From: a virus
DNA: 64,000 nucleotides
IMG/VR virus record: IMGVR_UViG_3300024259_000010
Location: 171,834 to 235,833 of that record
Reading direction: 5' to 3' (one strand)
Shown here: positions 12,193 to 58,617 of the stretch, piece by piece
Layout: each line of letters opens with the position of its first letter
Numbering within the stretch: position 1 is the first letter of the stretch
Program-made: the position numbers and the translations under genes
The notes under the pieces: model-generated
Told to the model about the DNA's origin: nothing
Database searches by the model: none
What the model saw: only the letters and a program-made list of their open reading frames with translations

Positions 12193-12771
12193 ATGGAAGA
12201 ACCTGCAGTTGAAGAAGTACAGGAACTTAACGTAGAAGAAATTGTTGATAACGTATCACCTGTTGAAAATAAAGAAGAAGATGATGGAACAGGTTTCCCA
12301 TTGTTAGAAGATATGTCTTTTCTAGAATCAGGTGGTGTTGACAAAGATGGTAATCCAGTTGTTGACCAAGCGGCTCTACAAAAGCAGCTCGAAGAATCTA
12401 AACGTTCTACTCTATTGAAAATGGAACACATTGAACAAACGATCACTGATGTACCTAGACCATCATCATGGACTGAAGCACATAAGTATGCGGATATCAT
12501 TATACGAGTAATGGATATGAAGCAACAATATGGTGAAGGCCCAACTGGTGATCCATCAGCTGTAATTAAACTCATGCCTAAAGATATCGCCGATAGAGAT
12601 CTTAAGGAAGAGTATCAAAAAGTTGAAGCTAAAGAATCTGACCTCAGTTTTCGTGGTCGTGAGTTAATCAGTAAGTTGTATTTCATTTATGGTAAACGCA
12701 CATATGCTAATATTGTAAGATCTGCCGCTAACACAGCAAAGGTAAATCTAGTTAAAAAATGGTGGGAGTAG
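12193..12771 (+). CDS. Hypothetical protein paired with the UvsX-like gene, 192 aa
   Basis: The first 60 residues are very acidic (EEPAVEEVQELNVEEI). The remainder is helical and charged and ends in a basic tail with VKKWWE. The gene has an AAGGAGA site and stops one base before the UvsX-like recombinase start, so the two are almost certainly co-translated. A role as recombinase partner or DNA-loading factor is an inference from context only; no UvsY motif was recognised. Confidence 0.65.
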   Translation: MEEPAVEEVQELNVEEIVDNVSPVENKEEDDGTGFPLLEDMSFLESGGVDKDGNPVVDQAALQKQLEESKRSTLLKMEHIEQTITDVPRPSSWTEAHKYADIIIRVMDMKQQYGEGPTGDPSAVIKLMPKDIADRDLKEEYQKVEAKESDLSFRGRELISKLYFIYGKRTYANIVRSAANTAKVNLVKKWWE

Positions 12772-12772
12772 T

Positions 12773-14152
12773 ATGAGTAATAACGTATTCGAGTCACTAT
12801 ATGGAGATAGTCCTCCATTAACATTATTTAACACAGGTACATTGTTCGACCTTATGGCTGGAGCATATACTGTAGGCTCGGATGGTAAGTTTTATCTAAA
12901 TGGGGGTTTAGGTAATTTTATCACCGGTCTCCATGGAAGAGGTAATACTTTTAAAAGTACTCTTACTGATGCTCTTGTTATGGGTGTTCTTCGTAACTAT
13001 GATGATGTTCAATGCTTCTGTGTTGATACTGAACATAGTAAAGATAAAGCACGCATCATGTCCTTTGTTAATAGTGGTATATTTGAACCTACAGATGTAT
13101 CAGATAGATTCCATCTTAAAGCTGGTCCTGAATGGACTATCAATAAAGTATGGGATTTAGTTAAGCAAGTTTGTGAACTAAAGGCTAAGAATAAAAAAGC
13201 TCTTTATCAGAAAACTAACTTCCTAGATTATCATGGTAAACAGATGAATGTCTGGTCACCAACTATTATCTGGATCGATAGTTTCTCTCAACTTAAATCT
13301 GATGCAGAAGGTGATATCCTCGGATTGGATGCTGATGCTAAATCAAAGAAAGATGAGCGTGAAATAGAGAATAAGAAAAATAAGACTCTCTATATGGATG
13401 ATGGTAATAAGAAGACTATGTTGATGGCCGCATTAAATAAGATGTGTGCTGAGTATGGTATCATCATTACAACCACTGCTCATACTGGTGATAACTTTGC
13501 TATGGATGGTGCACCACCTTCTAAAGAGTTATTACATCAGAAACAAAAAGATAAGATCAAAGGAGTTGGATCTAAGTTCACAACATTGACACATGTTCTT
13601 ACTCAGGTACAATCCTGTAAGTTCTGTCAAGACAGTGCTAAGAAAGCTCTTTACTGTGATGGTGCAACTGCTGATCAAGATCTAAATGAATTAAGTGTTG
13701 TTATCAGTAGAAACAAAGTAGGTGCAAGTGGTATCTCTGTTCCATTCGTTGTATCCCAAGCACATGGATTGTTAAACGATGTTAGCAATCTTAACTTCTT
13801 GAGAACATATGGATATGAAGGTTTGACTGGCGGTGCTAGTAAACCTAACAATAGTTGTTCATGGTTGCCCGAAACTACCTTCACTCGAAACAATGTTAGA
13901 GAGAAGTTTAGAGGCGATTACCAACTATGTCGTGCAATGGAATTAGTTGCAAGATATAGATATATTCAATTATCATGGAATCTAAGTAAACTACCTATTG
14001 ATTTCACTCGACCACCCGAACAAGTATTCGACCTATTGACCAAGTCTTCAATGAAGATGGAAGATATTTTGAATACTACATCTAATTGGTCCTTTAAGAA
14101 ACGTGATCGTGAGTTCATGACTCTGTTCGACATTATTGGACAAATCAAATAA
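12773..14152 (+). CDS. uvsX: UvsX-like RecA family recombinase
   Basis: This 459-aa protein has a non-canonical Walker A, G55-R-G-N-T-F60-K61-S62, with Phe where RecA has Gly. T4 UvsX has the same FKS form. It is followed by a CFCVDTE strand (about 81-87), where UvsX has a LFYDSE line, and Walker B at IIWID (165-169). A small Cys cluster (SCKFCQDSAKKALYC, near 272-287) could bind metal. RecA proteins form filaments on single-stranded DNA and drive strand exchange, here probably for replication restart and recombination of the phage genome. A DnaB-type RecA core is a weaker alternative. The gene ends in a strong terminator. Confidence 0.75.
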   Translation: MSNNVFESLYGDSPPLTLFNTGTLFDLMAGAYTVGSDGKFYLNGGLGNFITGLHGRGNTFKSTLTDALVMGVLRNYDDVQCFCVDTEHSKDKARIMSFVNSGIFEPTDVSDRFHLKAGPEWTINKVWDLVKQVCELKAKNKKALYQKTNFLDYHGKQMNVWSPTIIWIDSFSQLKSDAEGDILGLDADAKSKKDEREIENKKNKTLYMDDGNKKTMLMAALNKMCAEYGIIITTTAHTGDNFAMDGAPPSKELLHQKQKDKIKGVGSKFTTLTHVLTQVQSCKFCQDSAKKALYCDGATADQDLNELSVVISRNKVGASGISVPFVVSQAHGLLNDVSNLNFLRTYGYEGLTGGASKPNNSCSWLPETTFTRNNVREKFRGDYQLCRAMELVARYRYIQLSWNLSKLPIDFTRPPEQVFDLLTKSSMKMEDILNTTSNWSFKKRDREFMTLFDIIGQIK

Positions 14153-29389: not shown

Positions 29390-30961
29390 ATGCAATATAT
29401 TCACCAAGTGCGTCCAGATGGTAAAATAGATATGGCATTAGATTTAGGAAACATTAAGATACCTGAATTAGATGGAAAAGAATATCTATTACGATTTGTC
29501 ATTAAGACGTACACTAAAGTATGTAAAAACATTTCAAGTGGAACAGAAGAAAGTTCTTTCAATGCTATTAACAACTTCTTTGATTATATAATTGAAGATG
29601 ACAAAAAGATCATAGCTATTTATTTAGCAACAATGAATCATGTTATTCAAGAACATATGAAGAACGATTCTGCTGATAATATCATGGATCTATCCAAAGA
29701 ACTTGGGCAGATGGTATTGTCATTAAATAATATTATCTCACTGTATGATAAGTTAGTAGAGTTTGCATCTAAGAACGTCCCTATTAATTTGTTTAAAGAA
29801 GCTGGTGCTCGTCCGCAAGATACACCTCTTCATACTTATTATAAGGAAGACATTATTGAACTACTGGCATGTGTATTCATTTCAAAATTACTAGCTCCTA
29901 TATTTGGAACTATAATGAATTATGCTACTAAGTCTGGTATTGAATCACGTATCAAAGAATTACATTGTTTACCTATCGTATCACCACTATATGCAGAAGC
30001 ATGTCCACATGTTATTTATAAGCTGAAGAAATACATTGAACCTATTCTCAATAAAGAGTTTAAGGAAAATATGGATTCGATCAGTATTGGGTTTACTAAG
30101 AACTCAATTGAGAATCATGTGTTTGTGAACCTTATTGTACGGAACTTTATTAATCTCGATATTTATAGAGAGAATAGTAATCATATTACTGCTATCCGAG
30201 TTGGTATTAAGAAATCAATTGATACTCAACGTAGTAACATGAAGACTAATAAGATCATGTTCCGTGAAGACATATCAGCATTGCCTGATGATCAGAAAAG
30301 ATCTCAATTGGAGATCGATAGTGTTATCAGTAAAACAACAGCTGATGTACCTATTATCACTTCTGTATTCATCAACAAGACTGTAAATAGATTCTTAAAG
30401 GAGTATGATATTGAACATGGGATGTACGATGAATGTCTTAGACATAATTATGAATCTGGTGTTACGTATAATATCTTAAACTCTTTGATATTGGAAATCT
30501 TATTTAGCGGTGCATTGAGTGGTACTAAATCATTTAAGTATTTAACCATTCAAGATATAGCAAAATTGGTTACATGTTCACAGTTAATTTGTGCCTCTTT
30601 GAATTATTACGAACTCGCTAGCAGTATGACTGCATTGAGTTCATCTATGATTAAAGAACAAATGACTGATATGGATCAACAGATATTAGTTGGGTATCAA
30701 ACAAAACAACAATATCGTGCATACATTACTAAACTATTGGATTCATCATTAGGACCAGATATGCTAGTTAGCTTCTTTACCATAAGAGCTAAAAGTATCA
30801 TTACGTCAATTACGACGGATACTCATATCTTTAATAATAGTGAACTACTATGGCAACAACAGAAACATGACAATGTTAATGGTACAATAATTCAATTCAC
30901 AGATGGTTATATTCAAGAACTATGTGGATTATTAAACTTATTGTCAATTGAAGAATATTAA
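29390..30961 (+). CDS. Hypothetical protein, 523 aa
   Basis: Mostly helical, soluble and charged throughout, without signal or membrane segments. It heads a long plus-strand unit. No family recognised; a virion or assembly role is possible from the genes further down. Confidence 0.6.
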   Translation: MQYIHQVRPDGKIDMALDLGNIKIPELDGKEYLLRFVIKTYTKVCKNISSGTEESSFNAINNFFDYIIEDDKKIIAIYLATMNHVIQEHMKNDSADNIMDLSKELGQMVLSLNNIISLYDKLVEFASKNVPINLFKEAGARPQDTPLHTYYKEDIIELLACVFISKLLAPIFGTIMNYATKSGIESRIKELHCLPIVSPLYAEACPHVIYKLKKYIEPILNKEFKENMDSISIGFTKNSIENHVFVNLIVRNFINLDIYRENSNHITAIRVGIKKSIDTQRSNMKTNKIMFREDISALPDDQKRSQLEIDSVISKTTADVPIITSVFINKTVNRFLKEYDIEHGMYDECLRHNYESGVTYNILNSLILEILFSGALSGTKSFKYLTIQDIAKLVTCSQLICASLNYYELASSMTALSSSMIKEQMTDMDQQILVGYQTKQQYRAYITKLLDSSLGPDMLVSFFTIRAKSIITSITTDTHIFNNSELLWQQQKHDNVNGTIIQFTDGYIQELCGLLNLLSIEEY

Positions 30962-37022: not shown

Positions 37023-39104
37023 ATGGATGATAATGTAATAGCAGATCCACGATCTATTGCTGATACAAATATTAAACCAGAGGTGATTGGTCTTGAGAAT
37101 CTTCTTAGTCCACTCTGTCAGTTCAACTCATCACAACGTGCAGATATGTTTAGTTCAAATATTTCACAAGCGTTAGTGGTAGATGGATGCGAACCACCAA
37201 GATTAGGATCTGGATTCGAACAGATGATTGGAGATTATTACTTCGATCCAACGCGTCGTAAATCAGAAGCTCAGTTAATTGATGTGATACCAAAATTCGA
37301 AATAGGATTTAGTAGTTCTCATATTTCAGAGTGTCCTAGTAAGACTGTAATACTTTTAACACCAGAAGGTATTGATTGTATTGAGATTAAGAATCATGAA
37401 CAATTATATTCAGGGTTTGGTTACAAGAACAAAATATCACCAGATGCAATTTATCTTAATACGGATGAAGGATCTTTTATTCCTAAAGATATGAAATTTG
37501 CAGAACCACCTAATCACATTGAAGGCGTACATTGTTTAGGCGTTAATGCTCAAGTAGCATATATGGCTATCCCACATGTTGTTCAGGATGCAATTGTTAT
37601 TGGTGAAAGTTATGCTAAAAAGAATGGTCACTTAGGTGTCCATACTGTTAAAGTCTCATTAGATGAAAATGATATTCCAATCAATCTCTATGGAACTGAA
37701 ATAGATCCTAAGATATTTCCAGACATTGGCCAGCAGGTTAATGAAGAAGGTATCTTAATGGCTATCCGAGAAAGCTCGGCATCGTCATTTGCAGATCTTA
37801 CAGAAGCAGCACTTAACCATGTTCAGTTTACAACTGATAAGATTATTAAAGCACCAGCAGGTGCCACTGTTATGGATGTCAAAGTATTCAGCTCAGCTAT
37901 TGCATATAGAAAGCTTGCTGATAATCCTGGTATGATGTCTCAGGTTATTAAATACCAATCACATTATTACAATTACTATAAGCGTATTATCGATTGTTAT
38001 AACAAGATTAAAAATGATGGGCATAAATTAACTCCACGTTTCAATGATCTAGTAACACGAGCAATGTGTTTGAAGAAACCAGCAAACTCAAAAGAGAAAC
38101 TACCACTGATTGATAAACGTGTACCTGTAGGACATTTCGTATTAGAAATTACTTATGGTTATACACGCAATGTATCAAATGGTTTTAAATTTGCTGGACG
38201 TTCTGGTAACAAAGGTGTTATCTCAATTATCTGGCCTGATGAACATATGCCAGTTGATGAACAAGGTATTAGAGCTGATATGATTGTCTCTCCTGAGTCA
38301 GTTGTAAACAGATTGAATCCATCACAGTTATATGAACAGTTCTATAATAGAATGGGTGACTTAATGGCACAGCGAGTTCGTAATGATGAATTCGGTTCCA
38401 TGACAAATACATACAATACTGTCATAAGTTTTCTTAAGGATATTCGTCAAGAGTATGCGAGAGAGATAGATGAGCTATGTGATACTCCAGCAAAGAAGCA
38501 GGCATTAATCGATGATATCAAAGAAGATGGTTTTTATCTGATTATACCCCCATTCTGTAAGGATGTTACATTGTTAAATTGTAAGAATCTAGCGGCTAAG
38601 TACAACTATGTTGAATCACCTGTAACTTACTCGTATCGACAACAAGACGGTACATTGAAAACTGTTACAACTAAGTTTGATCATTGCATTGGATCTATCT
38701 ATATGTACATACTTGGTAAGATACCACAGATGCAGGCTTCTGCATTAGAGATATCGTACATTAATCAATTCGGGTTACCGATTAAAGCAAAGTCAAAGGA
38801 ACTGAAACTACAACATCTGTATACAGCTACACCATTACGTTTTGGTGAAGATGAAGTCAGTATGTTTATTATGGATCTACCTCCTGAAAACATTGCAAGA
38901 TTCTTGGGTATACGTGCTACATGCACATCAGCCACAGAAAAGATGAATCGTGAATTGTTAACGGTCAAACGACCATCTGCTATTAAGCACATTAAGATGT
39001 CTACTAGAGAGATCGTGAAGAATAGTGTTGTGAGTAAGATCTTTAATCATTACATGGGTGTTATAGGATTCGATACAAGCGAAACCTCATCTGGTCGTAA
39101 ATAA
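37023..39104 (+). CDS. RNA polymerase beta subunit, C-terminal part
   Basis: The 693-aa protein contains FAGRSGNKGVISIIWPDEHM (about residues 390-410), followed by a VDEQGIRADMIVSPESVVNR line. These match the beta-subunit segment GRxGNKGVI...MPxxExGxxxDxxxxPxxxxSRM that holds the conserved catalytic-site lysine. Only the C-terminal half of beta is present; the N-terminal half is a separate protein, as in phiKZ-like phages. It is followed at once by the beta' C-part gene, the same arrangement I recall for the phiKZ non-virion polymerase genes gp71-73/gp74. It probably transcribes phage genes after infection starts. Confidence 0.85.
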   Translation: MDDNVIADPRSIADTNIKPEVIGLENLLSPLCQFNSSQRADMFSSNISQALVVDGCEPPRLGSGFEQMIGDYYFDPTRRKSEAQLIDVIPKFEIGFSSSHISECPSKTVILLTPEGIDCIEIKNHEQLYSGFGYKNKISPDAIYLNTDEGSFIPKDMKFAEPPNHIEGVHCLGVNAQVAYMAIPHVVQDAIVIGESYAKKNGHLGVHTVKVSLDENDIPINLYGTEIDPKIFPDIGQQVNEEGILMAIRESSASSFADLTEAALNHVQFTTDKIIKAPAGATVMDVKVFSSAIAYRKLADNPGMMSQVIKYQSHYYNYYKRIIDCYNKIKNDGHKLTPRFNDLVTRAMCLKKPANSKEKLPLIDKRVPVGHFVLEITYGYTRNVSNGFKFAGRSGNKGVISIIWPDEHMPVDEQGIRADMIVSPESVVNRLNPSQLYEQFYNRMGDLMAQRVRNDEFGSMTNTYNTVISFLKDIRQEYAREIDELCDTPAKKQALIDDIKEDGFYLIIPPFCKDVTLLNCKNLAAKYNYVESPVTYSYRQQDGTLKTVTTKFDHCIGSIYMYILGKIPQMQASALEISYINQFGLPIKAKSKELKLQHLYTATPLRFGEDEVSMFIMDLPPENIARFLGIRATCTSATEKMNRELLTVKRPSAIKHIKMSTREIVKNSVVSKIFNHYMGVIGFDTSETSSGRK

Positions 39105-39122: not shown

Positions 39123-41003
39123 ATGAATAGACAAATAATAACAACTGCTATGTTATCCAATATGGAATACTTAGTGGAAAATGTTAGCAAGCCTAATGTT
39201 ATGATTGACCTACAGTTGGATGATGGTAATAAAATAAAACTATCATCTACTAATGCTATACTACATGGTATTTTATGGATACCTTATTATAGACTAGGTC
39301 GTAATATAACTATTAATGAAATATACCCAATCAAGAACGTGACACCAGAAACGGTCAGTGAAGTACAAACTATTCAATATAGGCATTTGATGGAAGAAGT
39401 CGATATGCCTTACATGGACATTGTGAAGTTATTATGGGATACTGTGATAACCTTATATAAATTCGTTCATGCAAACTTGGGTGAGTACTCCAGATCTATT
39501 AGTTTAATGTCACTAATTCATGTAACTGATAACCCAGCTGTTAAGAAGATTATTGAAACTGACATACCGAGTGAACTTGGTACTAAGGTGGCAGAGATTC
39601 GATTCAATGAGTTATCTAAAGAATTACTTGATGTACTTGAAGACCCTAAAGCAATACCTAATAATCCCATGTTACCATTCATGGATTCAGGTGTGTTTAA
39701 TCGTAATCAGCTACCACAGTTAATGATGGCATATGGAGCACGGTCAGATCTAGATGATCAGATGCAGAAACATGTCATTAATGAATCATCACTGAGTGGA
39801 TTGAAAACAGTCAAAGATTATGCGACAGAAGCATTGAGTGCTAAGAAAACATCATTCTACTTGAAAGATGTTATTAGCAAGACTCAGTACTTTGCTCGTG
39901 TACTTCGATTGAATAATATGCAATTCAGAAAGAAGTATAAAGGTGATTGTGGTAGTACATATGTGGCTCCAATAACAATAGCTACAGGTACTGGTAAGAA
40001 CTTTGTTGATAAAGTGGTGTTCCACCATGGTAAGAAAGTAATCATAACTAAGAATAACTATAAAGAACTAGAGGGACATCGTGTTGAAATGATATCACCT
40101 CTTGGTTGTAAATATCATGATGGTATTTGTGAAAGATGTGCAGGGCGTGCTACAACTAAGCCTTGGGCATTTATGCCAGATATTCATCTAGGTAATTATT
40201 CTAAGTCGAAGCTATGTGCTAAAATATCGCAGAAGGTATTGAGTGCAAAGCATCTTATCAAAACAACTTCAATTGAACCTAAGTTATTTGATTGTGCAAA
40301 ACGATATCTATGTAAGAAATCTGGCAGTACGAATATTATATTCTGTAAAACTGTTAATAGAAGTCTTAAGAATATCGCAGTCGTAGTTCCATATGAAAGT
40401 ATGAAACATATCGGTGATTTGCATTATGGTCAAACTGCTGAGAGCTTTAGTCTGTTGGAACAGATTGCATTTAAGAATACTGCAACTGAACAAATGGATG
40501 AGATTAAGCTTGGTGAACCACAGTTCATGCTGCACTTCTCAGAAGAAATGTTAGAACATATCAAAACTGTATATCCAGATATCGAATTGGTAGATGGTAA
40601 TTATGAGATTCCTATGAAAGGATTTAAAGCAAGTGATCCGTTCATTTCTTATGTCGTAATTAATGATGATATGGTAGCATTCTCTGATCGTGTGAAGAAC
40701 ATGATTAGTAACAACATGGCAAGTTATAATTCAGCATCATCTGCATTGATTGATCTGGCTAATATCATCTATACTAAGACAAACCTAAATATATTCTTTA
40801 TTGAATTAGTAGTTAAGTCTTTGATGAGTAGACCTATCACATGTGATACAGATGTAGACTTCTCGAAATTACGTGAAGGAATCATTGACTCAAGTGTTGC
40901 ATCTAAATTAGCACATGAAGATATTCGTAGATACTTACAACAAGCATCTACTTGTGTCGTTCCAAAAGGTGATAGTCCTATTGACATCTTCTTTGGGTTC
41001 TAA
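39123..41003 (+). CDS. RNA polymerase beta' subunit, C-terminal part
   Basis: The 626-aa product has a zinc-cluster-like line, GCKYHDGICERCAGR (about residues 328-343), followed by HLGNYSKSKLCAKISQKVLS, matching the beta' segment GxCxxCYGR...G...AAQSIGEP. Before it lies a trigger-loop-like stretch (KTSFYLKDVISKTQYFARVL). Its gene follows the beta C-part by 18 bases with a TAAAGGAA site, so the pair is one operon. The partner N-terminal parts lie on the minus strand at 50097 and 54445, or elsewhere. Confidence 0.85.
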   Translation: MNRQIITTAMLSNMEYLVENVSKPNVMIDLQLDDGNKIKLSSTNAILHGILWIPYYRLGRNITINEIYPIKNVTPETVSEVQTIQYRHLMEEVDMPYMDIVKLLWDTVITLYKFVHANLGEYSRSISLMSLIHVTDNPAVKKIIETDIPSELGTKVAEIRFNELSKELLDVLEDPKAIPNNPMLPFMDSGVFNRNQLPQLMMAYGARSDLDDQMQKHVINESSLSGLKTVKDYATEALSAKKTSFYLKDVISKTQYFARVLRLNNMQFRKKYKGDCGSTYVAPITIATGTGKNFVDKVVFHHGKKVIITKNNYKELEGHRVEMISPLGCKYHDGICERCAGRATTKPWAFMPDIHLGNYSKSKLCAKISQKVLSAKHLIKTTSIEPKLFDCAKRYLCKKSGSTNIIFCKTVNRSLKNIAVVVPYESMKHIGDLHYGQTAESFSLLEQIAFKNTATEQMDEIKLGEPQFMLHFSEEMLEHIKTVYPDIELVDGNYEIPMKGFKASDPFISYVVINDDMVAFSDRVKNMISNNMASYNSASSALIDLANIIYTKTNLNIFFIELVVKSLMSRPITCDTDVDFSKLREGIIDSSVASKLAHEDIRRYLQQASTCVVPKGDSPIDIFFGF

Positions 41004-41015
41004 AATATAAATTAG

Positions 41016-41055
41016 TATATAGCTAGGTCGTAATGACCTAGCTATATATTTTTTT
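41016..41055 (+). terminator. Intrinsic terminator after polymerase pair
   Basis: A perfect 13-bp stem with a GTAAT loop is followed by a long T-run. Confidence 0.95.
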
Positions 41056-41077
41056 GTAGTTCATATGTATATGGATA

Positions 41078-41085
41078 TATATTAC
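41078..41085 (+). promoter_or_regulatory. Early-type promoter TATATTAC
   Basis: Upstream TGTAGTTCAT and downstream ATAAACTAATTTAAATAAA with AAAGGAAA match the conserved early leader. Confidence 0.9.
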
Positions 41086-41122: not shown

Positions 41123-41632
41123 ATGAGATATCCAACAAATAAAAATAATGAGTTTAAAATACATCTCAAAGAACTTGGGTTTAAGTCATATAAAGATGTG
41201 GCATTAGCTGCAGGGACTACAGCACCATTGATCAAGGCTATTCTATCCATCGGTCCAAGTGATAGATTTGTGTTGAACCGAGCAGCACATGCATTAGCCA
41301 CGGTTGGTGTAGACATTAGCATCCTGGGTTATGAATCTCCTGAGAAATTGGAAGATATAGATGGGCTTATGTTTGATGCACCACAAAGCGATTACAACTT
41401 CTTCGATTCTATCTACGACAATGAACGTAGAGAAGTAGTCTTGGAAATGCTTGCAACTCTGACAGAGCGGAAGGCCGCGATCCTATATGACATATATTTT
41501 GAAGGTTCTACTTTTACCAGTATAGCCAGCAAGTACGGTGTCACAAAAAACAGGATAAAGCAAATCCACGACAGAGCTTTAAGGGCTATGCGGCACATAA
41601 CACGTGCAAGAATGTTACAGCAAGTTTATTAA
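41123..41632 (+). CDS. Sigma-70 region 4-like transcription factor with XRE-like N-terminus
   Basis: The 169-aa product has an N-terminal helix-turn-helix of XRE style (YKDVALAAGTTAPLIKAILS, residues 23-42) and a C-terminal block from about residue 100. That block reads EMLATLTERKAAILYDIYF then SIASKYGVTKNRIKQIHDRA, ending LRAMRHITR. The last part closely follows sigma-70 region 4 (FGVTxERIRQIEAKALRKLRH), which binds the -35 element and the beta flap. No region 2 or 3 is seen. It lies directly behind the polymerase pair with its own early promoter, so it may adapt host or phage RNA polymerase. Confidence 0.7.
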   Translation: MRYPTNKNNEFKIHLKELGFKSYKDVALAAGTTAPLIKAILSIGPSDRFVLNRAAHALATVGVDISILGYESPEKLEDIDGLMFDAPQSDYNFFDSIYDNERREVVLEMLATLTERKAAILYDIYFEGSTFTSIASKYGVTKNRIKQIHDRALRAMRHITRARMLQQVY

Positions 41633-41645
41633 AAAGGAGAATAGA

Positions 41646-42062
41646 ATGAAGATTGTAAAAGACTCACATATGGATCACGGTCTGTGTGATGAAATAATTG
41701 CGGAGATCACGGAAAAGTTTGCAGACAAGGATGGTTTCTTTATTGAAACATTCGAAGCTGTATCAGGAGAAGCACCCTGTGGGCTCTACGGGCCTATTGT
41801 TGGTGATGCCCCGGTTGATGAGAGGGATGTGTATTATACCAAACGCGGGGATCGTGAATATGATTCACGTATGGTTAAACTCCCTATGCGTATGACCAAT
41901 ACAATTACAGTTATTGCAGGTCCTCATGAGGATGATGCATGTGTATTGTATACAGCGTATGCTGGACCTCAGGCTCCAATGGAACCAGGTGATCCGAAAC
42001 AGAATGCTGCTGAGGTTGAAGACAATAAAGTCTTCTGGGCTAAGCACGCACTCTGTGAATAA
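41646..42062 (+). CDS. Conserved protein of unknown function, 138 aa
   Basis: ATG at 41646 follows AAAGGAG. The chain has FFIETFEAVSGEAPCGLYGP, VYYTKRGDREYDSRMVKLP, TITVIAGPHEDDACVLYTAY and PMEPGD, ending FWAKHALCE. I recognise this order (CGLYGP, SRMV..P, ITVIAG, LYTAYxGPxAP.EPGD, FWxxHAL) as a small family seen in bacteria and phages, without a known function. Base composition is noticeably less AT-rich than in neighbours, hinting at transfer. A UUCG terminator follows. Confidence 0.6.
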   Translation: MKIVKDSHMDHGLCDEIIAEITEKFADKDGFFIETFEAVSGEAPCGLYGPIVGDAPVDERDVYYTKRGDREYDSRMVKLPMRMTNTITVIAGPHEDDACVLYTAYAGPQAPMEPGDPKQNAAEVEDNKVFWAKHALCE

Positions 42063-42103: not shown

Positions 42104-42125
42104 GAAGTTCAATATATTTCAGGTA

Positions 42126-42133
42126 TATATTAC
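42126..42133 (+). promoter_or_regulatory. Early-type promoter TATATTAC before the tRNA-like element
   Basis: The octamer ends 5 bases before the 5' end of a tRNA-like sequence. The usual leader is absent, so transcription may begin at or next to the tRNA-like 5' end. Confidence 0.8.
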
Positions 42134-42138
42134 TTATA

Positions 42139-42209
42139 TGATAAGTAGCTCAGCAGGTCAGAGCATTCGGATCTCCGAAAGGTTACGGGTTCGAGTCCCG
42201 TCAATATCA
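42139..42209 (+). tRNA. Degenerate tRNA-like element with a 4-base anticodon loop
   Basis: The order is D-stem GCTC/GAGC with loop AGCAGGTCA, anticodon-position stem TTCGG/CCGAA, variable AGGTT, and a perfect T-arm ACGGG-TTCGAGT-CCCGT. The anticodon loop is only ATCT, 3 bases too short, so there is no normal anticodon. The acceptor pairs only partly (TGATA with TATCA, then mismatches), and no CCA is encoded. It may be a decayed tRNA, a tRNA mimic or an RNA processing signal. It is flanked by two TATATTAC promoters. Confidence 0.5.
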
Positions 42210-43778: not shown

Positions 43779-45272
43779 ATGTCAACGAATGATAAATTAA
43801 TGATGATCGTAGAACCTACATGTATTCGATTACCTTATGGTAAATTAGATACATCTTGTAGATTCTATGCTAGACGAATATTGGAGGATTTCTGTAAAAA
43901 GAAATTGACTTCATTTGAATATGTGAAACGAGTTAATCGTTTTGTAAAAGATAAAGAGTACTTTAAACATGATGAGGTAGGAATGGTAATGCGAATACCA
44001 TCTGCCTTCATACATCAGTTGGAACAATTCTTAAGTGAACACTTTGTAATGTATCAGAAAGAGTTGGTCCGTACAATAGGCGACCGTGGTTTAACATGTG
44101 AACTCAATCCAGAGTTTACACCAAGGCCGATACAGAAGAAACCTATTGAATACTTATGTGATAAATCCACTAGCAAACGTGGTCTTGAATTACAGACAGG
44201 TAAAGGCAAGACATTTATTGCAACCCAGGTCATTAAACAACTTAATGAACCTACTATTATTGTGGTAGGAGGATTGATCCAACAGTGGTACCTTGAAGTA
44301 AAGAAGTTCCTAAAGATACCTGACAATAAAGTCTATGTAATTCAGGGTATTGGATCTATTAAAAAGTTATTTGATAATCCTAAACTTCAACCAGAAATTT
44401 TTATTTGCTCTGTAGGAACTATGCGTCCTTGGATCAAACAGAAAGAGAAGTATAAGCAATTCCCTACCTTCCAAGAATTTGTTGAGAAGTATGGGATAGG
44501 AACAAAGATTGTTGATGAGGCCCATTTATGTTTCCACGCATCTTGTATGATGGATCTATCAGGTGCTATCAACAACAACATTTATTTAACAGCTACCTTT
44601 GAATCAGCTAATCAATCAGTAAGACGTATCTTCACAACGTACTTCCCTAATCATATGATCTATGATGAAGTTGCTTATGATAAATACGCACATTCTACAT
44701 TCTATTTATATAACGGTTCTGTTCACGAAAGACGATGTCTTACCCATAAAGGTTATAGTCATCCTAAGTTTGAGGAACAGCTGTTACGTAATCCTAGATT
44801 GTTAATGGATTGGTTATGTCGTATTATTGAACCCTTGGCTAATATACATTACTTTAATAAAGGTGATAAGCTTAAGGGTAAGAAACTCATGATACTTTGT
44901 GCAAGAGCAGATATGGTCCATATGGTTGCACAGTTCTTTCATGATAGACATCCTGAGTATATAACATTATCTAAACTAGCGGATGATGATGAAGATGTAT
45001 ATGTTAAGGCTGACATTATCGTATCAACTGTTAAAGGATCTGGTACAGGTCGAGACATTAAGAACTTAGCTGTATTGATCAACACAATATCATTTAAAGC
45101 TATCACTACATCTAAGCAGGTCATTGGTCGTCTTAGAAAACTAGATGATGGTACACAAGTGGATTATGTTGATATGGTTGATATGAATATGTCAAGTCAT
45201 GTACGACACTTTAAAGACAGGTCTACTATTGTTAAAGATTGTAGTCTACAATATAAAGAATATAGATTATAA
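43779..45272 (+). CDS. SF2 helicase, UvsW-like
   Basis: The 497-aa product has helicase motifs in order: RPIQ near 116 (Q-like), Walker A LQTGKGKT (138-145), KIVDEAHL with DEAH (246-249), YLTATF (269-274), a motif IV region ILCARADMV, VSTVKGSGTGRDIKNLAVLI in two halves, and QVIGRLRK (motif VI). T4 UvsW-type proteins of this size reshape recombination intermediates and R-loops. Pairs functionally with the UvsX-like gene at 12773. Upstream is a non-promoter hairpin region (43730-43770). Confidence 0.8.
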   Translation: MSTNDKLMMIVEPTCIRLPYGKLDTSCRFYARRILEDFCKKKLTSFEYVKRVNRFVKDKEYFKHDEVGMVMRIPSAFIHQLEQFLSEHFVMYQKELVRTIGDRGLTCELNPEFTPRPIQKKPIEYLCDKSTSKRGLELQTGKGKTFIATQVIKQLNEPTIIVVGGLIQQWYLEVKKFLKIPDNKVYVIQGIGSIKKLFDNPKLQPEIFICSVGTMRPWIKQKEKYKQFPTFQEFVEKYGIGTKIVDEAHLCFHASCMMDLSGAINNNIYLTATFESANQSVRRIFTTYFPNHMIYDEVAYDKYAHSTFYLYNGSVHERRCLTHKGYSHPKFEEQLLRNPRLLMDWLCRIIEPLANIHYFNKGDKLKGKKLMILCARADMVHMVAQFFHDRHPEYITLSKLADDDEDVYVKADIIVSTVKGSGTGRDIKNLAVLINTISFKAITTSKQVIGRLRKLDDGTQVDYVDMVDMNMSSHVRHFKDRSTIVKDCSLQYKEYRL

Positions 45273-50096: not shown

Positions 50097-51746
50097 TTAT
50101 TTATCAAGATCACGTGTTAAGTTGTACATTGTCAATACAGCCATATCTGTATCCATCTTAATGATAGGCACACCTGTAGTATTCAATATAGATTCAGCAC
50201 TTTCAATATATTTTTTAACTTCTTGATTGGCTTCTTCAGATATCACACCAAGACATGAGATAGTATCACCATCATGGTCAGCTGTCAAGGGTTTTAATTG
50301 TGAAGGATGTAATGCCACACTACCAATATCCTCAGATCTATATATTGGAAATCTAGATAACTCTTTTTGCACCATTGGATTAGCAGCAAAGGTTACCATG
50401 ACTTCTTCAAATCTAGCAGTAGTTGCAATATGAACTCTAGCAGGGAAGATACTATCAGGACCAGCTACAGGGAAGCGAGTTATAGTAGCATGTTTTTCAC
50501 CTAAGTAAATAGCAGCCATATAATACATTTCAAAATATGTAAGCGGTCTGATTTTAGTTTTATCAATTTCTTTAATCTGATTAGATGAAACTAGTAATTC
50601 TAAATCACCAATACCTCTAAATAAGAATACTCTATCACCTTCTCTATATGTAAGATATAGATAGTACTGTTTACCATCATCCGCATAACAAGAAACGTAA
50701 TCATGCTTAATAGTATTATCTTGGAATGAATGCATCCCATCAATAACTTTATCGGATTGTGTAAATTTATTCTTTTCAGATAAAGGGATAGTGTGGTAAT
50801 TAAGATTATATGTTTTAGGATCGATCAAACTAGCTTGCAATGAATCTCTACTAAAAATATTATTAAAGAACATCGTCTTTAAGTTATAAACCACTAAAGG
50901 TCTGAACATATGTATAACTTGGAATAACGGTATTAACACCTCACTAGATTTTAGCAGTGCTCCAGACGTTGCTGAGACAGCAGTTGTGTCAGCAGCAGAG
51001 ATGACATTTCTAGTACCCAAGGCAATCCCTCTGGAACCATATTTCTCTTGTAGGAAACCAGTCTTACCATCTAAGATGTTTAAGATAAAATCAAATAATT
51101 CATTACACTTAGATTGAAGTGCAACCATTACTGGATCAAAGATCTTACTATCACCATATGTGACTTTAAGAGTTCTAGCCAAACTTAGAATAGACATATA
51201 TACTTTATTGATATCACCTATCTCATCACGACCACCAATAGTTTTAATATCTCTTAGTCCAGCCGGTATGACAATCTGCTTATCAATAAACATTTTATCT
51301 TTATTCTGTAATAGTAATTTAATACTGGTATCTTTTCTAACAGCACCTGTTAACTTTGGTTCTAGTTTAGCAACATGTTCAACAAAGAAACTGAATCCAG
51401 TATCAGCTTCTTCATGTTCCATATCTACTAATTCAAAATCTTTTGTCTTTTCATTAAAGACAGCATATTCGTTACCAAACATAATATCTTTATATACTGA
51501 TTTAATCTTGAGAAGTGTATTGTAGATCCTAGGATGTAGAATCTTAGTATTTAGAGAAATGTATCCACGATTACTAATACGTTCTGAGGATGCCATCTCA
51601 CCAAAGATTGATTCAGAGAATAATCCATTCTCATCAAATGTACCAGTCGACGGGTTCTTAATGAAAGAAGATGTTACTTCAAGTAAATCTTTCTTCTCAA
51701 CAAACTCATCAACATTCATTATGTGGATTTTTAATGGATCACTCAT
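50097..51746 (-). CDS. RNA polymerase beta' subunit, N-terminal part
   Basis: The 549-aa product contains LHPSQLKPLTADHDGDTISC near residue 490, matching the catalytic beta' motif (NADFDGD), with all three magnesium-binding Asp kept and Phe replaced by His. Only the N-terminal half of beta' is present. In phiKZ-like phages this half belongs to either the virion or the non-virion polymerase; which one is not settled here. Its start overlaps the small zinc-like gene upstream by 8 bases, so they are coupled. Confidence 0.85.
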   Translation of the reverse strand: MSDPLKIHIMNVDEFVEKKDLLEVTSSFIKNPSTGTFDENGLFSESIFGEMASSERISNRGYISLNTKILHPRIYNTLLKIKSVYKDIMFGNEYAVFNEKTKDFELVDMEHEEADTGFSFFVEHVAKLEPKLTGAVRKDTSIKLLLQNKDKMFIDKQIVIPAGLRDIKTIGGRDEIGDINKVYMSILSLARTLKVTYGDSKIFDPVMVALQSKCNELFDFILNILDGKTGFLQEKYGSRGIALGTRNVISAADTTAVSATSGALLKSSEVLIPLFQVIHMFRPLVVYNLKTMFFNNIFSRDSLQASLIDPKTYNLNYHTIPLSEKNKFTQSDKVIDGMHSFQDNTIKHDYVSCYADDGKQYYLYLTYREGDRVFLFRGIGDLELLVSSNQIKEIDKTKIRPLTYFEMYYMAAIYLGEKHATITRFPVAGPDSIFPARVHIATTARFEEVMVTFAANPMVQKELSRFPIYRSEDIGSVALHPSQLKPLTADHDGDTISCLGVISEEANQEVKKYIESAESILNTTGVPIIKMDTDMAVLTMYNLTRDLDK

Positions 51747-52267: not shown

Positions 52268-53221
52268 ATGAAATTAGGACTAGAATCATTAACGCATGTG
52301 GACCAAAAGAGTTCTATCTCTATGGCGGCTTTTTACAGAGCTGAAGTAGATATGCTTGAATCTTATATTGGGATTGAGTCTATGGTAGGCCAATTGGATA
52401 ACACTATTGAAACCAGAGAGAACATCAGTCACATCAAAGCGACTGTTGAAGCTCATGGTATTGACAACGGATTAATCGCATTGTTCGGCAATGAACTTAG
52501 TGGCATTGCTCCTACGTTCAAGTCTAAAGATGCCAAAGGTGTAACTGTTGCACTCGAAGGTGTTCTTAAAGACGCTGGTACTGCTGTTATTGACTGGATC
52601 AAAAAGATCTGGGCTAAAATTAAAGAATTCTTTGCTAAGACCTTCAGTGCGACTGGACTCGCTCTTAAGATCTATGAAAAAGAACTTGATCGTGTACAGA
52701 AACTTGGTGGCGGTGCTGCTTATAAAGGTAGCTTGAAATCTGAAAAGAAAGTACCTTATTACTACAAGCCTGAAACGATGTCGATTCGCCTGAAAATGGC
52801 TGCGAAATCATTTGAGCTTGCCGAAAAGATTGAAAATGAAATCGGTAGTGGTAAATGGGCTGGAAATGCTTCCTATGAAACTATCAACACTTATGTTGAG
52901 CAGTTTGCTAAAGAAGGTAAAGATGACAAACAGCCTGACTTTGTTACCACAGTTGTTGGTACTACTACTCAAGCATTCGCTGGGTATCGTAAAAACTTAA
53001 CTGAGTACAAAGCTGTTATTAACAAATACAAAGCTCTTCCAGGTAAGATCCGCAGTCACAAGATTTCCAAATTGGAAGTTACTGAAGGCGCGATTGGCGA
53101 TCCTAAGAAAATGTCGTCAGCGGCATCTAAATGTATTAGCTCCGGTATGCGCTATATCGTTCGTGACCTTCATGGGTCCATTTCGGTCTTGCGTAACATC
53201 GGTCCTGCTAAAAAGAAATAA
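52268..53221 (+). CDS. Inner-head-type protein with predicted prohead cleavage site
   Basis: Start at 52268, not 52262, because the AAGGA site lies 6 bases before it and the paralogue starts in the same way (MKLGLE here, MKIGIE there). The N-terminal 97 residues hold a conserved ISHIKATVEAHGIDNGLIAL then LFGNELSG, ending in VALE|G at residue 97, a site matching the S/A-x-E preference of phiKZ prohead protease. The remainder is basic and helical with amphipathic stretches. Codons are clearly optimised, as expected for an abundant virion protein. Likely packaged in the head and cut during maturation. Confidence 0.6.
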   Translation: MKLGLESLTHVDQKSSISMAAFYRAEVDMLESYIGIESMVGQLDNTIETRENISHIKATVEAHGIDNGLIALFGNELSGIAPTFKSKDAKGVTVALEGVLKDAGTAVIDWIKKIWAKIKEFFAKTFSATGLALKIYEKELDRVQKLGGGAAYKGSLKSEKKVPYYYKPETMSIRLKMAAKSFELAEKIENEIGSGKWAGNASYETINTYVEQFAKEGKDDKQPDFVTTVVGTTTQAFAGYRKNLTEYKAVINKYKALPGKIRSHKISKLEVTEGAIGDPKKMSSAASKCISSGMRYIVRDLHGSISVLRNIGPAKKK

Positions 53222-53251
53222 TATTTTTAAAAATAAATATTAAAGAAATAA

Positions 53252-53368
53252 GATAATAGGTATACTCGCAAGACATCTAAGATCCTCTCTGGAGTTGCTA
53301 AAGATCTTATGTCCGGTCTTAAATGGGATCTCCAGGTTTGGAGAAACGTTAAGTCTGACGCTAAATAA
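53252..53368 (+). pseudogene. 3'-end remnant of an inner-head paralogue fused to a half terminator
   Basis: The first 22 bases copy the left arm and loop of the hairpin at 54403 (one mismatch). They join directly to a coding fragment with no start codon: frame TSKILSGVAKDLMSGLKWDL then QVWRNVKSDAK and a stop. That matches the C-terminus of the 52268 protein (SK..SG......DL.....V.RN...AK). It looks like a recombination or deletion scar of a lost paralogue. Confidence 0.7.
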
Positions 53369-54444: not shown

Positions 54445-57400
54445 TTAATTAAAGTACATATCAACAGCGTTATCTTCAACGCCTTTTAATATGTTTTCAA
54501 ATGCACCACTGAACAATGGACTTAACACCATTCGATTATTAATAGCCATCGCACTCATCATAGCATCTACTACAACAGTACCATCTTCAGATGTGGATTC
54601 TTTTTCCATAACTGTAGAAATAATACTTTTCAACGCTCCATCATAAACTAGCTTATCACCAGCAATCATAGATAGATCTTGTTGTATGTAGAACTTGAGC
54701 ATGATAGTTTCTTCATCTAATAGTTGTCCATCAATCTTATCATTAGTTATTGAACCAGGTTTATTGAACTCATAAGAATTTTTAGAATTACTAGCATGTG
54801 TATGTCTAGCTTTATTAACTCTATTAATACTATTAATGAACTTACGTACACTATCATTCATCTCACTAATTTCACTCTTATAGAACGCTTCTATCTTAAC
54901 GATAGTACCACTATATTTAGCTTTAGGAGTTGACTTGTTTAATGCAGAGATAATATCCAACATGTCCTTATCTTTATATTCCATACTAGAGATATCACTC
55001 TCATCGAAGATCATGATTGGATCAATAGACTTTACAAATGTTCCAGGCTTAGCTACTTTATGAATAACAGTGTTACGCTTAATAGAAAGCTTTCTAACTT
55101 GGACTGGATTGAAACTAAGTTTCTTAGCCAGATCTTCAGAGATAACACTACCGTCTTCATTTTGTCCAGCACCTTCTAAGAATGCTACATTAGCAAACAC
55201 ACCAATGCTTAAGTCGATAGCTCCATCATTAACATCCTTGATAAAGAAGTCGCTATTGTAAACCAACACATCACCCTTTTTAAATATACTTCCAGGAGAA
55301 GTATTAAGAGCCATGTTCTGTGTTACATAGAAACCACCTCCACCATTCTTAGAAAATTCTTGTCTGAATGAAACGGTATACAGACCAGCTTTCTTGTATT
55401 GGACAGTTAATGTTTCAGTATCAAGATTTACATCTAATACTTTGCCATCATCGGTAGCTATATAAGCAAACGGAGGTTGTGATCGTTGAGCAACTACTCG
55501 CTCATAACCAGTTCTCAGTCTAGCCATATCTTTATGTTGAGTTGGAACATATTGTGAAATCTGCATAGATACAAAGTTCATACGTTTACCATCGTCAAAA
55601 TCCAAACCAGGTAATAACATAGAAACAGGTGATAAGATTTCAGCAGGAGTTAAGTCCTCATGTTTCTTATTAACTGTCATACCACGAACGTTTACCACAT
55701 TTGAATCAACTGATAATGTACCGTCAATACCAATACCACCACTAGCTACAGATGCTTCACTTAGAATACCAACACTGTCATCAGCATAACGTCTATCTGC
55801 AATAGTCATTGATTCACCAGTACGTCCACCATCTCCAATATGAGAGAATCTGTGCTTAGCACCAATGTCACCAATAGGATTAAGAATATCAATATTTGTC
55901 AATAATGGATCAGTAGAGATTGCACCATAGATTTCAAATTCACTAATACTAAATTTATGAATACCACCTTTTGGTTTATTCTTATAGTTAGATAATGCAC
56001 GTGTTAGTTGTTTATACACAACAGCATTAAATTGTTCATACGATCGGTATCTGAAGTTAGTAGAGGAAGAAGCTTCCTTACAGTCATCAGTTGTCAATAG
56101 TACTACAGCTCTAATAAGAAGATCTCTAAGATTAGTAGGTTCACCCATTTGTTTCAATACATCTTCTGTGATTGGATCAACAAACAGATCAAACATATCA
56201 TCAATACCTTTAAGATAATTGATAGATAGTTTCTTAGATTGAATAAGATCAAAATAAGTATCCTTAACATCCATATCTTTAAATTCAATCTCACGATGTT
56301 TGATATCATTAAGACCGGAGAACATGAGCCGTCCGAAGGTTGTCATGTTTCTAAGTCTAAGAGTACCATCTTTAAATTTAACAGTTATGTCAGATAGAGG
56401 AACAGGTCCTTTAATATTCCCATCAACGAATTCATACTTAACATGTAAGTAGTCCAACATTTCAGTTAATCCATATTTATAACACAGTACAAAGATGACT
56501 GGTAATTTAATATTTAAGATATGGAAATTGACCCATTCTTTGAATGGTGGGAAAGGAGCATCTACATACTGTTTTAATAGATCCAGTACAGTTGTACTGA
56601 AAGTATCTTTATCATTAGTATAAACAGTCACAACCCCTGTAAAATTAACGAAAGTTTTCTTCTTTTCCGTTAAACCGAAGTAAACACCATATTTAGCTTC
56701 AAGCTTTCTAACGGCCTTCTGCTCTTCTTCAGACATTCCATCTAATCGCTCTTCTAATTTATAAGTCCAATTAAACTTTTTATGTTTGATTCCATTGAAC
56801 ACACTTGCGATTGCTGTGTAGTCATATGGGAGTTTAACATCCTTATAATTATTACGACCGATATCTAGTGTTACTTGATCTCCAGCTTTCACTAACATCT
56901 TTTTAACATAGATAGGTAATGTGTTAGAAAAGGATTCGTTTCTCTGAACAATAGTTTTATTGAAGTTAGAACTTAATGATACACGAGTAGGACTTACTTT
57001 ACATATCGGAGTATTGATACGCTGTAGGTTCATTCTCTTATGTGAACCATTGATAAAGCAATTACCGCTTTCATCTACTTTAGGTAAAGTAAACTTAACA
57101 GTATGTTGTCTACCATTCTCATCTTTAAATACAGATGTGTAAGTGATCTTACGTGTAAGTGAATCACTGGTGTCTTCTTCTTTAATATCCTGAAGATACA
57201 TTCCACCTTTTCTAAGACTCACTAGATTACTAACCATATCCTTCTTATAAGTCTTCTCCATATATTCATTAGAGAATTTAGCAACACTGGAAACAGTGAT
57301 AGACTTATCAGGAAGATCTTTAGTTACTTGTTCAGCAACCTCATTCTTCTTTAGGTTCTTATCTACTTTCTCAACTAAGATCTTTTCTACTGGTTTATTA

Positions 57401-58593
57401 TCTACAACAACCTCTTTATATTTAGTTGTGATTTCTTTAGTATACTTTTTCTTAGCTTCAGTTTTAGTAGTATCTTCAGCAAGCTTTTCATCAATAGCTT
57501 TATCTTGCTCGATTATCTTTTCTTTAGCATGTTTAACTTCTTCTTCAGGTTTAACAGTTTCTCTGAATTCAGTTGCATTATGTTTATCTTTTTTGATAAC
57601 AGATATTTCAGGTTCTTTCTTAACAACAATTTCTTTAGCTTCAACTGGATTCCCAGTTTCTTCAGGAACAAGTTCTTTAGCATGTTCTTTTTCAAGAACC
57701 TTTACTTGTGCTGGAGTTAATGCTAGATGATTTAATTGGAACAAGAATTGTAAAGCAACTGCAGGAGTACGTGTATACATATCTTTCAATGTAGCTAAGT
57801 TATAAATAATAAACTTACCATTATTTTGAAACACAATATTCATGTTGCTTAACATGTTCTCAGGAACCTGTTCAAATAAACTCTCTGTAGGATGCTCATG
57901 CATAAATCCTAATAGATGCATTACTGCTAAGTAATACGTAGAGTCTTGATGTTTAATAGTAACACGAGAATATTCTTTAAATGTTCTTAAGAAGTCCGGT
58001 TTAGATAATTTCATTTCACTAGTATTGAATACTACAAAATGTTGAGACTCAGGAAGTGTAATAGCATGGTTCATTACAGATGCAAGACCAAGATCAAACA
58101 CACGTCTATGTCTTAGGATACCTGTGACAATAGATCTGTAAATAGGATCATGACAAATCACATTCTGGAACATGTTAGAATTTGTAAACTCATTAAGATC
58201 GTTCTTTAAAAAGAATCTAGATAAGTTAGTATTTCTAAACTCTCTGATCTTTTGATCCACTCCTGCTAATACCTGTCGCATAGCAGTAAGGTTAGGTTGA
58301 ACAGCATCATTCTTATTAGGGTATCTGCGTACGAAGAATAAGTTTAGTTTCTTCTTTCCGAGATAATGCGTATAATGTTTCATGTTTGGTGTTGGGGTAG
58401 CGGTCTTGCCGTAGTTCCCATCAATACCAAAGTTAGTGTGTAACACTGAGCCAACTGGTAATTCTTTAAGATCTTTTAAATCATGTATCTTAGAAAAATC
58501 ACCTGGCCGCCGAACAACATAAGATCTGTAAAACATTGGATATGTGATCATCTCTTCTGAGATGTCTATATTACCCATATTGATATCGGTCAT
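54445..58593 (-). CDS. RNA polymerase beta subunit, N-terminal and middle part
   Basis: The 1382-aa product contains DDGKRMNFVSMQISQYVPT and RLRTGYERVVAQRS near residue 1000, matching the beta fork segment (DDANRALMGANMQRQAVP ... GMERAVA). A Lys/Glu-rich low-complexity insert covers about residues 285-430. The C-terminal half of beta is the separate gene at 37023 or a second copy elsewhere. The length is like the large virion polymerase subunit (phiKZ gp178), from memory. Start at 58593 is chosen because an in-frame ATG at 58608 overlaps the AAAGG site. A TATG-containing late-type element lies just upstream on the minus strand. Confidence 0.85.
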   Translation of the reverse strand: MTDINMGNIDISEEMITYPMFYRSYVVRRPGDFSKIHDLKDLKELPVGSVLHTNFGIDGNYGKTATPTPNMKHYTHYLGKKKLNLFFVRRYPNKNDAVQPNLTAMRQVLAGVDQKIREFRNTNLSRFFLKNDLNEFTNSNMFQNVICHDPIYRSIVTGILRHRRVFDLGLASVMNHAITLPESQHFVVFNTSEMKLSKPDFLRTFKEYSRVTIKHQDSTYYLAVMHLLGFMHEHPTESLFEQVPENMLSNMNIVFQNNGKFIIYNLATLKDMYTRTPAVALQFLFQLNHLALTPAQVKVLEKEHAKELVPEETGNPVEAKEIVVKKEPEISVIKKDKHNATEFRETVKPEEEVKHAKEKIIEQDKAIDEKLAEDTTKTEAKKKYTKEITTKYKEVVVDNKPVEKILVEKVDKNLKKNEVAEQVTKDLPDKSITVSSVAKFSNEYMEKTYKKDMVSNLVSLRKGGMYLQDIKEEDTSDSLTRKITYTSVFKDENGRQHTVKFTLPKVDESGNCFINGSHKRMNLQRINTPICKVSPTRVSLSSNFNKTIVQRNESFSNTLPIYVKKMLVKAGDQVTLDIGRNNYKDVKLPYDYTAIASVFNGIKHKKFNWTYKLEERLDGMSEEEQKAVRKLEAKYGVYFGLTEKKKTFVNFTGVVTVYTNDKDTFSTTVLDLLKQYVDAPFPPFKEWVNFHILNIKLPVIFVLCYKYGLTEMLDYLHVKYEFVDGNIKGPVPLSDITVKFKDGTLRLRNMTTFGRLMFSGLNDIKHREIEFKDMDVKDTYFDLIQSKKLSINYLKGIDDMFDLFVDPITEDVLKQMGEPTNLRDLLIRAVVLLTTDDCKEASSSTNFRYRSYEQFNAVVYKQLTRALSNYKNKPKGGIHKFSISEFEIYGAISTDPLLTNIDILNPIGDIGAKHRFSHIGDGGRTGESMTIADRRYADDSVGILSEASVASGGIGIDGTLSVDSNVVNVRGMTVNKKHEDLTPAEILSPVSMLLPGLDFDDGKRMNFVSMQISQYVPTQHKDMARLRTGYERVVAQRSQPPFAYIATDDGKVLDVNLDTETLTVQYKKAGLYTVSFRQEFSKNGGGGFYVTQNMALNTSPGSIFKKGDVLVYNSDFFIKDVNDGAIDLSIGVFANVAFLEGAGQNEDGSVISEDLAKKLSFNPVQVRKLSIKRNTVIHKVAKPGTFVKSIDPIMIFDESDISSMEYKDKDMLDIISALNKSTPKAKYSGTIVKIEAFYKSEISEMNDSVRKFINSINRVNKARHTHASNSKNSYEFNKPGSITNDKIDGQLLDEETIMLKFYIQQDLSMIAGDKLVYDGALKSIISTVMEKESTSEDGTVVVDAMMSAMAINNRMVLSPLFSGAFENILKGVEDNAVDMYFN

Positions 58594-58617
58594 CGTTATA
58601 CCTTTCATTTATATTTT

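Follow-up and report, generated by a model that had tools for sequence, protein, structure and literature searches.

Introduction

According to published surveys, phiKZ-related phages have no homologue of the cellular promoter-specificity subunit (PMC5312081), and group 1 jumbo phages have no σ factor (PMC7824862). The σ-like subunits phiKZ gp68 and AR9 gp226 are built into the phage RNA polymerase (RNAP) and have no reported sequence similarity to σ; the C-terminal domain of phiKZ gp68 occupies the region-4 site (PMC8287921; PMC7618050). Single phage-encoded σ helix-turn-helix (HTH) domains are known elsewhere, as stand-alone Sigma70_r4 proteins and as the minimal one-HTH σ factor of group 2 jumbo phages, which encode no polymerase and rely on that of the host (PMC7824862). 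T4 gp33, AsiA, and Xp10 P7 are phage proteins that act at the host RNAP β flap or at region 4 (PMC7892883; PMC2988021), and gp33 is structurally unrelated to σ region 4 (PMC7892883). Contact with the β flap has been located in and near H1, H2, and H5 (PMC2988021). Plasmid repressors of the KorA/TrfB type contain an HTH that is related to region 4.

Here, we describe a 169-aa protein encoded by an intact open reading frame (ORF) with an ATG start at positions 41123-41632 (+ strand) of a 64,000-base window, which comprises bases 171834-235833 of a 235,833-base IMG/VR virus record. The protein combines an HTH-like N-terminal half with a σ70 region 4, as judged from the ORF call, Pfam, phmmer, RpoD_Cterm, and AlphaFold2. 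It resembles RpoD/SigA and FliA/WhiG in sequence through region 4.1, the HTH, and the H5 tail, but differs from these σ factors in having no regions 1-3, another N-terminal domain, and K/N at the positions of R584/E585. With the stand-alone and group 2 proteins it shares a single σ HTH domain; unlike group 2 phages, its source phage encodes two multisubunit polymerases. Its likeness to phiKZ gp68 and AR9 gp226 lies in a region-4-like position in polymerase biology, but those subunits are much larger, and the source phage has a separate gp68-type gene. A strategy in common with T4 gp33, AsiA, and Xp10 P7 would be action at the host flap or at region 4; in contrast to gp33, the protein has the region-4 sequence itself. 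Its match to KorA/TrfB lies just above the cut-off and is much weaker than that to σ region 4, and the N-terminal half differs.

The C-Terminal Half of the Protein

Residues 110-158 matched the Pfam model Sigma70_r4 (PF04545) with an E-value of 3.2e-13 and a score of 49.4 bits, where the cut-off is 24.1 (51.7 bits for the source phage in a whole-record search). A PHROG sigma factor family matched at E=6.9e-12, residues 95-167 were aligned to the final portion of the NCBIfam model RpoD_Cterm (positions 159-235 of 238), and phmmer searches of the PDB returned chains of RpoD, SigA, SigF, and FliA with E-values down to 4e-6. The region 4 is specific rather than a generic HTH; with the C-terminal H5 tail it spans 41405-41623 (+ strand, residues 95-167). 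The first-pass annotation had read the segment as σ region 4-like and had named generic HTH matches alone as the outcome that would speak against this; the matches obtained are specifically to σ region 4 and run through H5. Its further claim that regions 1-3 are absent also held, as the σ models align at their C-terminal ends only and residues 1-91 match no σ family; a profile search of these residues found no region 2, the part of a complete σ70 factor responsible for core binding and −10 recognition.

When the protein was aligned with 24 RpoD-type sequences taken from viral contigs, all 25 rows were identical in 13 columns (L113, R116, T130, V140, T141, R144, I145, Q147, I148, A152, R154, H158, and L165). 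These columns are found in region 4.1, in the HTH, and in the H5 tail, whereas many of the remaining RpoD residues differ. In structures of σ70 with the −35 element, R584 and E585 of the E. coli protein read bases; their equivalents here are K142 and N143, while Q147 is the retained equivalent of E. coli Q589. The recognition helix is assigned to residues 142-156 (41546-41590, + strand) from the AlphaFold2 helix and the alignment with RpoD. Relative to RpoD region 4, one loop lacks four residues, as it does in two FliA/WhiG-like sequences. The same segment also scored barely above the cut-off of the Pfam model KORA (KorA/TrfB repressor, PF16509; 27.9 versus 26.7 bits), which we take as overlap of related HTH folds. 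To judge by its sequence, the C-terminal half is a genuine σ70 region 4, well beyond chance.

AlphaFold2 placed helices of this half at residues 100-110, 115-125, 131-138, 142-156, and 159-168, with pLDDT of 79-88 in residues 111-150 and lower values at the ends; the alignment supplied to it consisted of σ sequences, so the region-4 model is partly circular and serves as a consistency check only. The PDB structures matched by the model were σ factors, all at significance weaker than E=0.001. A single-sequence prediction of the protein was poor (pLDDT 43).

The N-Terminal Half

Residues 7-68 (41141-41326, + strand) appear to form an HTH-like helical domain, perhaps of XRE type. Low-confidence AlphaFold2 helices were found at residues 7-17, 23-29, 34-43, 48-60, and 65-68, a layout that would fit an XRE-like domain. 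When the N-terminal half was compared by hhalign with an XRE alignment built from PDB and phage sequences, it scored 20.65, above the maxima of shuffled sequences (16.5, n=200) and of slices of real proteins from the window (18.3, n=173). Against the identical alignment, the score of the region-4 half was 19.9, and because this is nearly as high, we limit the label to HTH-like. Pfam, including its XRE (HTH_3) model, gave no match in residues 1-70, and no XRE model matched the N-terminal half. Thus, of the XRE-like N-terminal domain proposed initially, the HTH-like helical half stood and the XRE label did not: the predicted domain is HTH-like at most, and its membership of the XRE family is weakly supported.

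The Source Phage and Its Polymerase Genes

In a tree of nvRNAP β subunits from 21 phages, the source phage is grouped with AR9, PALS_2, and phiR1-37 with support of 100/100, as the deepest member of the group; another β tree placed it with AR9 and PALS_2 (support 98/97). PBS1, PALS_2, and phiR1-37 have served as examples of phages that encode multisubunit RNAPs and lack chimallin (PMC10299810). A profile of the nuclear shell protein (phrog_4795), which may miss divergent shells, gave no match in the source record, itself possibly incomplete, and matched 20 of 24 related records, the misses being AR9, PALS_2, and two SPN3US-type phages. By the nvRNAP β tree, the source phage groups with the shell-less branch of polymerase phages, and no shell protein was detected in it, although the gene order around gp68-β-β′ and the early promoter are phiKZ-like. 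The record also contains a tmRNA at record positions 52880-53309 (Rfam, 100 bits; tag GTKVINFPSARALAA) and genes for tRNA-Leu, tRNA-Met, and tRNA-Arg.

The C-terminal subunits of nvRNAP β (gp71-73 type; 37023-39104, + strand; phrog_3295, E=1.3e-134) and β′ (gp74 type; 39123-41003, + strand; phrog_3015, E=2.2e-68, and synteny) are encoded directly upstream of the region-4 gene, just as the first-pass annotation had placed it; β′-N (gp55 type) lies at about record position 166,800. On the − strand lie a further RNAP subunit gene, probably that of the virion RNAP, at 50097-51746 (phrog_2986) and the gene for the virion RNAP large subunit, of gp178 type, at 54445-58608 (phrog_3148; a JM-2012 homologue is annotated as similar to phiKZ ORF178).

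A gp68-type promoter-recognition subunit of nvRNAP is encoded at 29390-30961 (+ strand; phrog_3209, E=4.7e-18). This family also includes PhiPA3 gp62 (1.7e-183), whose annotation likens it to phiKZ gp068. The 169-aa protein itself does not match phrog_3209, and since a gp68-type subunit is present, nvRNAP does not require it for specificity. The idea that it replaces a missing specificity subunit was accordingly rejected, and the earlier argument that a phage with its own polymerases needs no classical σ is strengthened.

In most related phages inspected, a helicase gene, found here at 43779-45272 (+ strand; profile match and gene order), lies directly 3′ of β′. An annotated helicase immediately follows β′ in PhiPA3, LucasX, AH06, Psa21, and Proteus phage 10; the corresponding gene of FLC9 is similar in size but unannotated, and the order in AR9 differs. 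In the source phage, four genes (starting at 41123, 41646, 42294, and 43125/43209) stand between β′ and the helicase. Shewanella phage SXP01 has other genes in this gap, one of which (12771-13955 of the SXP01 stretch) codes for a protein of 394 aa whose XRE domain is HigA-like.

The Transcription Unit

A strong intrinsic terminator (41014-41050, + strand; 17-pair stem followed by a T-run; fold z=-8.1) separates β′ from the region-4 gene, and an early promoter follows at 41060-41085 (+ strand). The promoter, TTCA-N13-ATATATTAC, exactly matches a genome-wide motif that occurs in the window, with up to one mismatch, seven times versus 0.53 expected by chance, which bears out the early promoter predicted for the gene. 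Because of this terminator and promoter, the ORF begins its own transcription unit, probably together with the gene at 41646-42062 (+ strand; phrog_23674), which starts 13 bases past the region-4 stop codon; no recognised terminator lies between the two. Weak, nearly full-length relatives of the second gene were found only in jumbo phages CBB, GAP32, XbC2, and Kaldavass. The GC content of the region-4 gene (0.40) and of its partner (0.44) is above that of the flanking β′ gene (0.34) and of most listed genes; for large phage genes, GC3 has a mean of 0.26 (sd 0.06, max 0.44), a range that includes the 0.36 of the region-4 gene. Further downstream, a tRNA match (42140-42209; Rfam, 43 bits, missed by ARAGORN) starts about 7 bases past an early promoter motif at 42108-42133.

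Early promoters of the source phage are bipartite: a conserved element lies about 13-18 bases upstream of the TATATTAC core, and a position that resembles TG follows some 13-14 bases downstream (a stricter downstream pattern gave 0 matches). The TATATTAC core is common to the source phage, PhiPA3, and Goslar. The same bipartite layout is seen in PhiPA3 and Goslar as well as in SXP01 and ZPAH34, the latter two with a GATATTAT core. A special upstream element due to the 169-aa protein was considered and rejected, the layout being identical in these four phages; because they have it with no region-4 domain above the cut-off, the element gives no support as a region-4 target. Promoters of the early class are transcribed by the virion polymerase (PMC7598289).

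Search for Relatives

Whole-record searches found Sigma70_r4 above the cut-off in 0 of 25 other polymerase-encoding phage genomes, and no relative of the 169-aa protein was found in 24 other polymerase phage records. No relative of the whole protein was found in phages, plasmids, viral contigs, or genome contigs, the contig scans being searches with short exact peptide patterns that detect only close relatives, in collections that may not show records close to the window. The N-terminal half alone had no phage relative. Close kin of the source phage were likewise not found through β′ or the virion RNAP subunit in viral contigs, or through β in genome contigs. As far as sequence tells, the 169-aa protein is a domain-level exception to the published surveys, on a deep branch of shell-less polymerase phages. 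What is new is a stand-alone σ region 4 in a class of phages for which these surveys report none; stand-alone region-4 proteins as such are already known elsewhere.

Discussion

The reading that we tentatively prefer, short of an even chance, is that the protein is an early regulator whose region 4 would act on the host RNAP β flap, on −35 DNA, or on both. The first-pass annotation had suggested that a region 4 alone could block or redirect host RNAP or guide the phage polymerase, which is plausible. The protein would be made from its early promoter, together with the second polymerase of the phage. Its region 4, with the preserved H5 tail, would dock on the β-flap site used by host σ and/or occupy −35 DNA, where it would read the bases in an altered way; host transcription would be weakened or biased, while the phage would run on its own two polymerases. 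Flap binding, the host polymerase as target, and the direction of the effect are what we infer. Action on the host polymerase is favoured over the alternatives because of the gp68-type subunit, the early promoter, and the H5 tail. In addition, host polymerase and phage DNA may be together in the cytoplasm, given the place of the phage among shell-less phages and the negative search for a shell protein. Counted against this reading are the stand-alone region-4 proteins of other phages, the region-4-like domains present in some DNA-only regulators, the missing four-residue RpoD loop, and the partial circularity of the region-4 model. A more speculative and doubtful version is that a phage of the shell-less branch, with two multisubunit polymerases of its own, took over σ region 4 to serve as an early weapon or switch: as a mimic, it would occupy the host β flap and shut off or redirect host promoter recognition while having the fold of the part that it displaces.

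The protein could instead be a two-HTH repressor or activator that binds phage (or host) promoters with no RNAP contact, its region 4 being used only to read DNA, in the manner of KorA-like regulators. The KORA match above the cut-off on the region-4 segment, the HTH-like N-terminal half, the retained HTH residues, and the unrelated HigA-like XRE protein in the corresponding gap of SXP01 are consistent with such a role, but σ region 4 is by far the better match (49 versus 28 bits), and an RpoD-type tail (RH..R...L), unneeded for DNA reading, is preserved after the HTH; we regard this as possible and the less probable of the two. An accessory or alternative specificity factor of a phage polymerase, which would direct nvRNAP to middle promoters, for example, or help the virion polymerase at early promoters, is unlikely. 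The gene does adjoin the nvRNAP genes, and the nvRNAP of phiKZ does not work on middle promoters in vitro, an alternative form having been proposed (PMC7598289). However, the region-4 site on nvRNAP is probably taken, because a gp68-type subunit is present and phiKZ gp68 holds that site; 25 related polymerase phages have no such domain above the cut-off; other phages, too, have the upstream element of the early promoters; and the protein, itself made from an early promoter, would be absent at first transcription unless packaged. Least probable, and in our view improbable, is that the gene is recently acquired cargo, not selected for any part in phage transcription and placed beside the polymerase genes incidentally. 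The failure to find a full-protein relative, the GC-richness of the gene and its partner, and relatives of the partner in unrelated jumbo phages would agree with recent acquisition, but the ORF is intact, has a well-formed early promoter and a terminator, and is unexceptional in GC3.

If the 169-aa protein binds host RNAP, as under the preferred reading, it would show how a phage that can do without host transcription nonetheless deals with the host enzyme. Binding to a phage RNAP would instead make it a separate specificity factor for a family of enzymes that have so far been described with built-in ones.
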